64,000 nt of DNA from an uncultured Holophagaceae bacterium (GTDB lineage: Bacteria > Acidobacteriota > Holophagae > Holophagales > Holophagaceae). The stretch covers positions 1 to 64,000 of the forward strand of contig CAIMQW010000298.1 in the NCBI GenBank assembly GCA_903843705.1, given 5' to 3'. A model generated the notes under the pieces. It had not been told where the DNA came from, searched no databases, and worked only from the letters and a program-made list of their open reading frames with translations. Positions 8,768 through 16,651 of the stretch are shown here, one piece after another (the first letter of the stretch is position 1; the number at the start of each line of letters is the position of its first letter). The position numbers and the translations under genes were made by a program.

Positions 8768-10999
8768 ATGAAAGCAAGGTGGTGGCTGGTTCTGCTGGTG
8801 CTGCTGGCAGGTTTTGGTGTGCTGGGACTGGGAGGGCGGCAGATCGCCCAGAATGCCCCGCCGATTCCGCAGCGGGTGGTGGCCGAGGACGGCACCCTCC
8901 TGGTGGGACCCGGTCAGATCCTCGCGGGGCAGGTCAGCTACCTGGGCCATGGTGGGCAGCACATCGGTTCCATCCTGGGGCACGGCTCCTACCTGGCGCC
9001 GGACTGGACCGCCAAGGCCCTGCACCAGTGGGCGGCGGGCACCCTGGCCAGAGTGACCGCCCGGGGCGTTTCCCCAGCGGAAGCCAGGGCCCAGACCGTG
9101 GCTTTATTTCAGGGTAACAAGTATGAAATAGCCACCGACACCCTGAAGCTGGATGCGGCCCAGGCCCAGGCCTACCTCAAGACCCGTGCCGAGCTAGCCC
9201 GCATCGCCGTGGAGGGTGACAAGGAAGCCGCCATCCCCGCCCGCTGGATTCCCACCCAGGCCGAGGGCGAGCGGGTGGCCGACTTCTGGCTGTGGACCGC
9301 CTGGACCGCCGCCGCGCGCCGACCCGGCTCCGAGGCCAGCTACACCCAGAACTGGCCCCATGAGCCCCTGGTGGGCAACACCATCACGCCCATCAGCCAC
9401 CTCTGGAGCATCCTGTCCATCATCCTGCTGATCCTGGGCGTGGGCCTCATGGTCTGGCACCACGCCAGCCAGCCCGCCGAGGAGTTCCCGGCCCCCCAGG
9501 CCATCCCCGCGGCGCCCGCCACCTCCAGCCAGCGCTGGTCGGCCCTCTACTTCGCCGTGGCCATGGCCCTCTTCCTGGTGCAGATCGGCATGGGCGTCCT
9601 GACGGCCCATGACGCTGTCGAAGGCAACGCCCTCTACGGCGTGGACCTCTCCCGCATCCTGCCCTACGCCGCATCCCGCACCTGGCACCTGCAGCTGGCC
9701 GTCTTCTGGATCGCCACCTGCTGGCTGGCCACGGGCCTCTACCTCGGCCCCAAGCTCAGCGCCAAGGAGCCCAAGGGCCAGTGGATCGGCGTGGCCGGCC
9801 TGCTGGTGGCCCTGGTGGTGGTCGTCGTCGGGGCCCTCACGGGCGCCCACCAGGCCATCCTGGGCAAGCTGTCCGGTTCCTTCATGCTGGGCCATCAGGG
9901 CTATGAATACGTGGAGCTGGGCCGCCTATGGCAGATCCTGCTCACCGTGGGCATGATCGGCTGGCTGGTGATGGTGGTGCGGGCCCTGCTGCCCGCCCTG
10001 CGCGGCGAGAAGGGCCGCGTGGGTCTGCTCAAGCTCTTCGTGCTCTCCGCCGTCGCAATCCCGCTCTTCTACTCCGCGGGCTTCATGTACACCCGTGAAA
10101 CCCACATTGCCATGGCCGAATACTGGCGCTGGTGGGTGGTCCATCTCTGGGTGGAGGGCTTCTTCGAGGTCTTCGCCACCGTGGCCATCGCGCTGCTCAC
10201 CACCCGAATGGGCCTGCTCCGCGAGAGCACCGCCCTGCGTGCCGTGAGCCTCTCCGTGGGCCTCTTCCTCGGCAGCGGCATCATCGGCACATTCCACCAC
10301 CTCTACTACACGGGCTCCCCGGCCTCCATCGCAGCCCTGGGCTCCGTGTTCAGCGCCCTGGAGATCGTGCCCCTCACCATCGTGGGTTTCGAGATCGCGC
10401 AGAGCCTCAAGGCCGGCCGGGCCCTGGGCAGCGGCTACGAGTGGCCCTTCAAGTTTTTCGCCGCCGTCTGCTTCTGGAACCTGCTGGGCGCCGGCGTCTT
10501 CGGCATGCTCATCAACCCGCCTTCGATCCTCTACTTCAGCCAGGGCCTCAACACCACGCCCATCCACAGCCACGCCGCGCTCTTCGGGGTCTACGGCTTC
10601 CTGGCCATATCCCTCATGCTGTTTGCCCTCCGCGGCATGACCCCGGACAAGGCCTGGGACGAGAAGTGGCTGCGCTACGGCTTCTGGGGCCTGAACCTGG
10701 GCCTGGTCTTCATGCTGGTCTTCTCGCTGATTCCCAGCGGCCTCTACCAGTTCGTGCAGAGCCTCGAGCACGGCACCTGGTATGCCCGCAGCGCGGCCGT
10801 GGTGCAGAGCCCGCTTATGCGCACCTTCACCTGGCTGCGCATGCCCGGCGACGTGCTCTTCGGCCTCGGCGCCCTCTCGGTGATCACCTTCACCTTCAAG
10901 GCCGTCATCGGCGCCTGGGGCTGGAAGACCGCCGAAGCGACCGCACCTGCAGTCCCTGAAGCCGAGGCTGCACCCGCCCTCGCTACTGGTCAGGACTGA
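8768..10999 (+). CDS. norB: Quinol-dependent nitric oxide reductase large subunit (qNOR-type)
   Basis: 743 aa; N-terminal extension VAEDGTLLVGPGQILAGQVSYLGHGGQHIGSILGHGSYLAPDW; multi-TM heme-copper oxidase core with GTFHHLYYTG and IHSHAALFGVYGFLA. Confidence 0.93.
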   Translation: MKARWWLVLLVLLAGFGVLGLGGRQIAQNAPPIPQRVVAEDGTLLVGPGQILAGQVSYLGHGGQHIGSILGHGSYLAPDWTAKALHQWAAGTLARVTARGVSPAEARAQTVALFQGNKYEIATDTLKLDAAQAQAYLKTRAELARIAVEGDKEAAIPARWIPTQAEGERVADFWLWTAWTAAARRPGSEASYTQNWPHEPLVGNTITPISHLWSILSIILLILGVGLMVWHHASQPAEEFPAPQAIPAAPATSSQRWSALYFAVAMALFLVQIGMGVLTAHDAVEGNALYGVDLSRILPYAASRTWHLQLAVFWIATCWLATGLYLGPKLSAKEPKGQWIGVAGLLVALVVVVVGALTGAHQAILGKLSGSFMLGHQGYEYVELGRLWQILLTVGMIGWLVMVVRALLPALRGEKGRVGLLKLFVLSAVAIPLFYSAGFMYTRETHIAMAEYWRWWVVHLWVEGFFEVFATVAIALLTTRMGLLRESTALRAVSLSVGLFLGSGIIGTFHHLYYTGSPASIAALGSVFSALEIVPLTIVGFEIAQSLKAGRALGSGYEWPFKFFAAVCFWNLLGAGVFGMLINPPSILYFSQGLNTTPIHSHAALFGVYGFLAISLMLFALRGMTPDKAWDEKWLRYGFWGLNLGLVFMLVFSLIPSGLYQFVQSLEHGTWYARSAAVVQSPLMRTFTWLRMPGDVLFGLGALSVITFTFKAVIGAWGWKTAEATAPAVPEAEAAPALATGQD

Positions 11000-14038: not shown

Positions 14039-15763
14039 ATGAAAGTGATCGTCGCCAAGACCGCGGGCTTCTGCTGGGGCGTGAAGCGCGCCATGGACGC
14101 GGTGTTGGAGGCCTCGGTGCGCAACGATGGACGCCCGGTGCAGACGCTGGGGCCCCTCATCCACAACCCCCAAGCCCTCGATCTCATCGGCAAGCGGGGG
14201 GTGGCGGTGGCCGAATCCCCGGCGGCGGTGCGCGACGGCACGGTGGTGATCCGGGCCCACGGCATCCCCATCCAGGATCTGCGCGGCCTCAAGGAGCGCC
14301 AGGCCCGGGGCGAACTCAAGATCGTCAACGCCACCTGCCCGGAGGTGGCCAAGGTCCACCACAAGATCAAGAAGTGGAGTCCCAAGGGCTACTTCACGGT
14401 GATCCTGGGCACCCACGGCCATGCGGAGAGCGTGGCCCACCTCAGCTTCGCCGAGAGGGGCAGCGCCATCGTCGCAAACATGGCCGAAGCCGAAGCGCTT
14501 ACAGACGAGCAGGTGAAGAAGGTGCTGGTGGTGGCCCAGACCACCTTCACGGTGAAGGACTACCACGAGATCACGGACTACCTCAGAACCCGCGCCGGGG
14601 ACGCGGTCTTCGAGAACACCATCTGCGAAGACACCTGGACCCGCCAGGAGGAGGCCGAGCACCTGGCCCGCACCGTGGACGCGGTCATCGTGGTCGGCGG
14701 CAAGGCCTCCAGCAACACCAAGCACCTGGCTGAGCTGGCGGGGAAGCACGGCAAGCCCGTGCAATACCTCGAGACCGCCGCGGAGCTGGACCTGACGGCC
14801 TTCAAGGGCAGTGAGACTGTGGGCGTGCTGGCGGGTGCCTCCACCCCCACCTGGCTGGTGGATGAGGTGGTGGACGTGTTGGAGCAGCTCGGGGATGGCC
14901 CCAGCCGCTGGCGCAACTTCCTTCAGGCGGCCTTCGGCGCATCTTTTCTCATGGCCGTCGGCGCGGGCCTCATGACCCTCGGGGCGCACAAGTGGCTGGG
15001 CCTGCCTATGGGCTGGCGCTACCCGGTGCTGACAGCCACCTACGTGATTGCCATGTACCTGGTCAGTCCCTTCCTGGATCCCCTCGGCCTGGGCGCCAAG
15101 GGCCCCGCCCGGGCCCGGTTCCTGGAGCGCAACCGCCGGATGCTGAAGGCTTCGGCGGCGGCGGCACTGGGCATCACTCTGGTGCTGGCGGCCACCCTCG
15201 GGCTCAAGGTGCTGCTGGTGGTGGTTGGTGCCTCCCTGGTGGGCGCCCTCTACAAGCAGCGGTTCCCGCTGGGCGGCCGGGTCTTCAGCCTGCGGAGCAT
15301 CCCGGGTTCCAAGGACCTGGTGGTCTCCCTAGCCCTAGCCAGCGTGGCAATTCTCCTGCCCGTCTGGCAGGAGGGCCGGGCCTGGGACCTGCGGACCTTC
15401 GCGGCGGCGTTCCTGGTGGGGGTCCTGGCCTTCGTCCGCACGGTGATCTACGAGATCCGCGACATGCAGAACGACCAGATCATCGGCAAGGAGACCCTGC
15501 CGATCTTTCTGGGCAAGGCCGCCACCAAGGTCATCCTAATGGTGCTGCTGGGGGCACTGCTGGCGGGTACCCTCTGGCTCACCTTCCAGAACCGCAACCA
15601 AGGCCACCCCTTGGCCGTGGCGCTGGTGCTGGTGCTGTGCTCGGCCTACCCGGTGCTCTACCTGTGGCTGTTCCACGAGCGCTTCACCACCGGCCGGACC
15701 CGCTTCGAGCTCAGCGTGGACTTCAGCTTCTACCTGGTGGGCCTGCTGGCCATCGTCTGCTGA
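14039..15763 (+). CDS. ispH: 4-hydroxy-3-methylbut-2-enyl diphosphate reductase (IspH) fused to a UbiA prenyltransferase-like membrane domain
   Basis: N-terminal about 285 aa: KTAGFCWGVKRAMD, RAHGIP, NATCPEV, GKASSNTKHL, GASTPTWLV. C-terminal about 290 aa hydrophobic with EIRDMQNDQIIGKETLPIFLGK (UbiA second motif type). Single uninterrupted ORF. Confidence 0.88.
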   Translation: MKVIVAKTAGFCWGVKRAMDAVLEASVRNDGRPVQTLGPLIHNPQALDLIGKRGVAVAESPAAVRDGTVVIRAHGIPIQDLRGLKERQARGELKIVNATCPEVAKVHHKIKKWSPKGYFTVILGTHGHAESVAHLSFAERGSAIVANMAEAEALTDEQVKKVLVVAQTTFTVKDYHEITDYLRTRAGDAVFENTICEDTWTRQEEAEHLARTVDAVIVVGGKASSNTKHLAELAGKHGKPVQYLETAAELDLTAFKGSETVGVLAGASTPTWLVDEVVDVLEQLGDGPSRWRNFLQAAFGASFLMAVGAGLMTLGAHKWLGLPMGWRYPVLTATYVIAMYLVSPFLDPLGLGAKGPARARFLERNRRMLKASAAAALGITLVLAATLGLKVLLVVVGASLVGALYKQRFPLGGRVFSLRSIPGSKDLVVSLALASVAILLPVWQEGRAWDLRTFAAAFLVGVLAFVRTVIYEIRDMQNDQIIGKETLPIFLGKAATKVILMVLLGALLAGTLWLTFQNRNQGHPLAVALVLVLCSAYPVLYLWLFHERFTTGRTRFELSVDFSFYLVGLLAIVC

Positions 15764-15826: not shown

Positions 15827-16651
15827 ATGCGCCACTGGGTCTTGATCACGGGTTGTTCTACGGGCATCGGGCGGGCCTTGGTGCCGCTCTGCCGCCTGGC
15901 GGGCTGGGGGGTGGTGGCCACGGCGCGGCGGATGGAGGCCCTCGCGGACCTGCCGCTGGGCGAGGACCTGCGGGTGTTGGCCCTGGATGTGACCGATGCG
16001 GCGAGCATCGCAGCAGCCGTGGAGGCCTGCGCAGAGCTGCGGCTGAAGGCCCTGGTGAACAACGCGGGCTATGGCCAGGTCGGCCCCCTTGAGCTGCTGC
16101 GCACCGACGAGCTGAGGGCCCAGTTCGAGACGAATGTCATCGGTCTGCAAATGGTCACGAACGCCTTCCTGCCCCTGCTGCGGCGGGAGCGTGGCGCCCG
16201 CATCCTGCAGGTGGCGTCGATGCTGGGGCGACTGTCGATCCCCCTGGCGGGCGCTTACAACGCCTCCAAGCACGCGGTGGTGGCCCTGGCCGAGAGCCTG
16301 CGCCTGGAGGTGGGCCGCGAGGTGGCGGTGGTGCTGGTGGAACCCGGCGCCATCCGCACGGCCTTCCGGGATACCCTGGCCCAGAGGTGGGGGGACCTGC
16401 CAGAGCGGGGCCGGGGCACGCGGTGGGAGAAGATCCTCGCCCGCCACATGGCCGTGCGGAAGGAGCAGGCTGACCGCTACGCCATGGACGCAGAGTCTTG
16501 CGCCAGGCGCATCGTCAACGCACTGAATGCCGCGGTGCCGCCCCGGCGCGTGGTCATCGGCCACGACGCGAGGTGGGTCGGGAAGCTAAAGGCCCTGCTG
16601 CCCGCCGTCTGGTGGGAGTGGCTCCTGCGCCGGGCCTACCGGCTGGGTTGA
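15827..16651 (+). CDS. Short-chain dehydrogenase/reductase
   Basis: ITGCSTGIGRAL, NNAGYGQ, Y-x3-K (AYNASKHA). Confidence 0.92.
   Translation: MRHWVLITGCSTGIGRALVPLCRLAGWGVVATARRMEALADLPLGEDLRVLALDVTDAASIAAAVEACAELRLKALVNNAGYGQVGPLELLRTDELRAQFETNVIGLQMVTNAFLPLLRRERGARILQVASMLGRLSIPLAGAYNASKHAVVALAESLRLEVGREVAVVLVEPGAIRTAFRDTLAQRWGDLPERGRGTRWEKILARHMAVRKEQADRYAMDAESCARRIVNALNAAVPPRRVVIGHDARWVGKLKALLPAVWWEWLLRRAYRLG

Follow-up and report, generated by a model that had tools for sequence, protein, structure and literature searches.

An IspH-UbiA fusion in Holophagaceae with an eroded first Asp motif in its membrane half

In a bacterium of the Holophagaceae, IspH is joined in a single polypeptide to a membrane domain with the predicted UbiA fold, whose first Asp motif is degenerate. 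The gene lies in a 64,000-nucleotide stretch of DNA, referred to here as the window. The architecture itself is not new, since Rao et al. (2015) described 47 IspH-UbiA fusions as 'Rosetta stone' proteins, all placed in sulfate reducers and carrying two DXXXD repeats in the UbiA half; they proposed local IPP/DMAPP supply or sensing, and could not express the full-length protein (PMC4746011). What is new is the range of the fusion, which extends to two further phyla, the Acidobacteriota (Holophagaceae and others) and the Nitrospinota, and, as read from the aligned family, the erosion of the first Asp motif, where the equivalent of Asp72 of the Archaeoglobus fulgidus homologue AfUbiA has been lost about five times. 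A third new finding is purifying selection on the UbiA half. We tentatively propose that the UbiA half is an anchor and product sensor for IspH, which would bind prenyl diphosphates and carry out little or no conventional transfer.

The window protein shares with the Desulfobacterales fusions of Rao et al. an N-terminal IspH and a C-terminal UbiA-like domain in one chain, separate UbiA/MenA genes elsewhere in the genome, and the expected placement of a cytoplasmic IspH on a membrane domain. However, judged against the published description of that set, only its second DXXXD is present and the first is eroded; as two DXXXD repeats are a descriptive trait of the set, the window protein is filed as a variant of the architecture. 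Its hosts also differ, being Holophagaceae including Geothrix, other Acidobacteriota and Nitrospinota instead of the sulfate reducers named by those authors, a wider range that speaks against the earlier view of the fusion as a trait of sulfate-reducing anaerobes. A targeted literature search, with thin coverage of the subscription literature, showed no report of the fusion in Geothrix, Holophaga or Acidobacteria among the papers listed (8 of 61 matches).

According to ORF reading and translation, the frame is uninterrupted over 574 codons in this Geothrix-like host (Table 1). A preliminary description of the locus had recognised IspH and a UbiA-like domain in one ORF, a reading confirmed by profile searches, fold and a family-wide alignment. 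The census across genomes that it had suggested recovered 83 non-redundant full-length fusions from several lineages. The possibility that two neighbouring genes were joined by a sequencing or assembly fault, for which the fragmented state of the assembly (362 contigs, 86% complete) might speak, is practically ruled out by these 83 homologous sequences, which show the identical single-ORF layout in many independent assemblies, Geothrix isolates included.

Table 1. Features of the ispH-ubiA locus in the window
Feature	Position	Strand	Basis or remark
Complete ispH-ubiA fusion ORF	14039..15763	+	ATG to TGA, 574 aa plus stop
IspH half, residues 1-284	14039..14890	+	PF02401, TIGR00216
Short linker, residues 285-289 (approximate)	14891..14905	+	Boundary between domain matches; model helix 289-320
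UbiA-superfamily membrane half, residues 290-574	14906..15760	+	PF01040, model, Foldseek
Degenerate first Asp motif, S343 PFL D347 PLG L351	15065..15091	+	Alignment to NxxxDxxxD of canonical paralogues
Tyr405, equivalent of AfUbiA Y139, near-universal TM4 Tyr of UbiA	15251..15253	+	83/83
Lys425, IPGSKD loop between TM4 and TM5	15311..15313	+	83/83
Second Asp motif DMQND, D475 and D479	15461..15475	+	Both Asp in 78/83
Short-chain dehydrogenase	15827..16651	+	PF00106 4.7e-37; 63 nt downstream of fusion

Where the MEP pathway is the sole isoprenoid route, IspH is essential. The IspH half matches PF02401 over residues 3-281 (E 2.2e-79, 266.9 bits, cut-off 24.5), TIGR00216 (254.4 bits, cut-off 187.85) and PDB 3dnf (5e-50). 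The cluster cysteines Cys12, Cys100 and Cys196 are present, as are the active-site residues H42, H74, H128, E130, T169, S224 and N226, and across the 83 fusions the checked IspH residues are kept, except for one gap at C12 (82/83) and one T168S. Within the 86% complete genome of the window, a PF02401 scan found the fused IspH and no free-standing second copy, IspG is encoded, and HMG-CoA reductase was not detected; likewise, every fusion-bearing genome scanned with PF02401 has a single IspH. Sequence comparison argues strongly for an ordinary 4Fe-4S IspH in this half, which would be the only IPP/DMAPP source of the cell found here.

For the C-terminal half, the profile and structural checks proposed in the preliminary description both came out in favour of UbiA. 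PF01040 matches above its gathering cut-off (45.5-47.9 versus 34.2 bits), with the match beginning at profile position 70, past the first Asp motif. In a structure search, the full-length AlphaFold2 model (pLDDT 84.4, pTM 0.72) matches IspH structures over one half and UbiA structures over the other. Modelled alone (pLDDT 82.7, pTM 0.84), the UbiA half has 4TQ3, AfUbiA with GPP and Mg, as its best Foldseek match (TM 0.63, E 3.9e-5). The eight to nine membrane helices of the UbiA fold are represented in the model by eight long helices and a short C-terminal one. Compared with the superfamily (PF01040; AfUbiA 4TQ3, ApUbiA 4OD5, MenA), the window protein shares the fold, the TM4 tyrosine (Tyr405) and the second DXXXD, but it carries an N-terminal IspH and lacks NDXXDXXXD. 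As first supposed, EIRDMQNDQIIGKETLPIFLG is the second Asp motif (D475, D479). Where N-D-x-x-D-x-x-x-D is expected it has S343-P-F-L-D347-P-L-G-L351, with deviations at S343, P344 and L351, a degeneracy that had been noticed at the outset. Since the first motif defines the active enzyme and not the fold, we assign the protein to the fold family and no further.

In AfUbiA, Mg is held by two residues of the first motif (N68 and D72) and two of the second (D198 and D202); the N68A and D72A mutants no longer bind GPP, D198A and D202A have a comparatively mild, weakening effect on binding, and in MenA equivalent Asp-motif mutations killed activity and the Tyr equivalent to Y139 was needed (PMC4106721). 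In the window protein, N68 corresponds to S343, D72 to D347, D76 to L351, D198 to D475, D202 to D479 and Y139 to Y405. The first-motif part of this mapping comes from a profile alignment to canonical UbiAs of weak score, which places S343, D347 and L351 on N, D and D, and leans also on intermediate Nitrospinota sequences (NQLND). Canonical UbiA proteins from the same genomes, used as comparison, have NxxxDxxxD at this place. The N68 equivalent is Asn in 26/83 fusions and replaced in the other 57, the window protein among them (Ser343), with Ser or Thr in 48/56 Holophagaceae. The D72 equivalent is Asp in 65/83, including the window protein (Asp347) and 51/56 Holophagaceae, and E, N, S or R in 18, being Arg in most members of the Nitrospinota B group. 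The D76 equivalent is never Asp in the 83 fusions, although this loss alone tells little, as UBIAD1 has Gly at that position (NTYYDFSKG; PMC9314443). D475 is kept in 78/83 and D479 in 81/83, members of three families (f19, f9 and f27) having lost part of the second motif, while Tyr405 and Lys425 are invariant. When kept/lost changes are counted on a tree built from the IspH columns only, the N68 equivalent changes 4 times, the D72 equivalent about 5, D475 3 times, D479 once, and Tyr405 and Lys425 never. Given this repeated erosion, a canonical Mg-dependent transferase is an unlikely function for the family as a whole, yet it may still apply to the window protein itself.

Comparison of close relatives gives an omega of 0.13-0.26 for the UbiA half against 0.06-0.16 for the IspH half, and both halves are therefore under constraint, with purifying selection on the UbiA half. 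That this half would merely hold IspH at the membrane, its cavity being vestigial, is a distinctly improbable explanation. Its omega is indeed about two to three times that of the IspH half, no subfamily has the canonical first motif, and some deviate in the second as well, but a mere anchor fails to explain the invariance of Tyr405 and Lys425 and a second motif kept far above the domain average.

The fusion occurs in Holophagaceae including cultured Geothrix species, in Nitrospinota and in MAGs labelled Nitrospirae. A profile of the UbiA half matched 56/396 Acidobacteriota genomes, 51 of which (51/396) carry true fusions; the five left out gave weak matches of another kind, in frames of 311-453 aa. 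These 51 genomes comprise 41 of the window's own family (f1), six of a second family of its class (f2), and one, two and one of f9, f19 and f27, respectively. In the third family of the class (f3), the UbiA-half profile detected no fusion among three genomes, and IspH is free-standing in the one genome examined. Among the Nitrospinota, 19/24 genomes were matched and all intact IspHs are fused. No split version was seen in any intact locus examined; apparent short genes in three Nitrospinota genomes (G421, G422 and G404) were rejected as splits, since they lie at contig ends.

In a tree of the IspH domain, 39 fused sequences of both phyla and 20 unfused acidobacterial ones fall on opposite sides of one branch (SH-aLRT 98), this being a quick search with several long branches, built from a set without unfused Nitrospinota or Desulfobacterota. 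The tree of the UbiA half shows the same four main groups, and the distances of the two halves track each other (r 0.87), which gives no hint of domain swapping. The pattern is consistent with one fusion event and subsequent inheritance, transfer and loss.

The genes around the fusion vary by lineage. In Geothrix-like genomes the downstream gene is a short-chain dehydrogenase (cluster c0), which in Holophagaceae frequently follows the fusion directly or a little further downstream and is of interest as context only. Deeper Holophagaceae, and not the window, have ResB-like and in some cases ResC-like cytochrome c assembly genes 6-21 nt past the fusion (loci L035, L036, L037, L042, L043, L053 and L103). 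In four Nitrospinota loci (L047, L049, L157 and L159) an O-methyltransferase starts 4-33 nt after it, assigned to PF00891 in the one scanned, and another Nitrospinota group has ParA/ParB-like genes downstream, identified by reading their sequence. A TIM barrel gene is a further lineage-specific neighbour. Among these neighbourhoods no conserved operon naming an acceptor was found. As the fusion is never split while its neighbours differ between lineages, the fusion itself appears as the conserved unit. Upstream, the window encodes a quinol-type nitric oxide reductase at 8768-10999(+), with COX1 and NorB cytochrome c-like domains; various Holophagaceae loci likewise have this gene (cluster c4) upstream of the fusion.

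Three other UbiA-family genes are present in the window's genome: a UbiA/MqnP-like quinone prenyltransferase; a heme O synthase-like gene, so named from its best NCBIfam match, which lies under the cut-off; and a divergent gene overlapping a DUF116 gene (L056:1411-3089, G000:C286), which reaches no NCBIfam cut-off. The heme O synthase-like gene adjoins a CoxB-like gene, CoxB being read from sequence, and the pair suggests oxygen respiration in this organism. Sampled fusion genomes have further UbiA-family genes too. Because the quinone and haem prenyltransferases have genes of their own, a role of the UbiA half in quinone or haem synthesis is less likely.

These separate genes also count in favour of a bifunctional enzyme, following the proposal of Rao et al. 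2015, in which the UbiA half would prenylate an acceptor that is neither quinone nor haem and IspH would raise the local precursor supply. We consider this a serious, if somewhat doubtful, possibility. The nearly invariant second DXXXD, Tyr405 and Lys425, the Asp347 kept in the window protein, the match of the predicted fold to substrate-bound UbiA structures and the O-methyltransferase of the four Nitrospinota loci all speak for it. Nevertheless, the Asn equivalent to N68 is replaced in most fusions, the window protein included, most of the Nitrospinota B group has Arg at the position of D72, the D76 equivalent is never Asp, members of f19, f9 and f27 lose part of the second motif instead, and no set of pathway genes accompanies the fusion from one lineage to the next.

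We place an anchor and product sensor slightly ahead of an atypical transferase, since the residues on which diphosphate binding depends most have been repeatedly lost while the fusion persists. According to this proposal, the UbiA-fold domain would anchor IspH to the cytoplasmic face of the membrane and still bind prenyl diphosphate near Asp347, DMQND, Tyr405 and Lys425, with little or no conventional prenyl-transfer activity, and would thereby tie IspH to the membrane isoprenoid pool. Binding, reduced catalysis and regulatory coupling are what we infer from the pattern of conservation. That erosion has struck precisely the first-motif positions of greatest weight in prenyl-diphosphate binding counts in favour, as do the separate UbiA/MqnP-like and heme O synthase-like genes, the purifying selection on the UbiA half, and a fusion that is never split while its neighbours vary. 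Against it, the second motif, Tyr405 and Lys425 are kept as strongly as an active site would be, Ser or Thr could partly stand in for Asn, and Asp347 is present here and in nearly all Holophagaceae. The preliminary description had offered either the coupling of precursor supply to membrane prenyl transfer, or an anchor or sensor; the identification of the two halves stands, and both functions fit the sequence.

That such a device can exist in principle is indicated by UBIAD1, a GGPP sensor bound to HMG-CoA reductase, whose N102S variant has lowered GGPP affinity and activity (PMC9314443). Both systems physically link a UbiA-fold protein to a central enzyme of isoprenoid precursor synthesis, and Ser343 sits at the motif position of N102S. 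However, UBIAD1 and HMG-CoA reductase are distinct polypeptides and belong to the mevalonate pathway of eukaryotes, which makes the likeness one of analogy and not homology, and as a precedent this also weighs against the sensor proposal. By this analogy, the fusion could be a bacterial one-polypeptide counterpart, in which a pseudo-prenyltransferase senses membrane prenyl diphosphates and feeds back on IspH, an extension we regard as rather unlikely; if true, feedback control would act on the last step of the MEP pathway. The IspH-RPS1 fusions also have a second protein joined at the IspH C-terminus, but there the partner, ribosomal protein S1, is a soluble and unrelated protein.

That IspH is fused to a membrane domain throughout a lineage, without being split, suggests that these bacteria benefit from having precursor supply coupled to the membrane, and the eroded first motif provides a direct test of the partner as enzyme or sensor, a question that can be addressed because culturable Geothrix species carry the fusion.

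Other unusual domain combinations were seen in the same material. A further UbiA fusion of another kind exists in this lineage: in Geothrix fermentans, a Flavodoxin_2/FMN-reductase and a UbiA domain with the first motif NEWFDQGTD share one 511-aa ORF (L123:805-2337; G396:C1 near 735164). The same species has a 733-aa ORF (L134:1414-3612(-); G396:C13) with a weak C-terminal UbiA match of 31.5 bits, below the cut-off, and an N-terminal part in which the domain scan recognised no domain. Finally, the most divergent fusion is preceded, at a distance of 3 nt, by an ORF for tyrosyl-tRNA synthetase (L098:3602-5506(-)) that carries a pyruvate-ferredoxin-oxidoreductase (POR) domain at its N-terminus, an arrangement that may be natural or an assembly fault.
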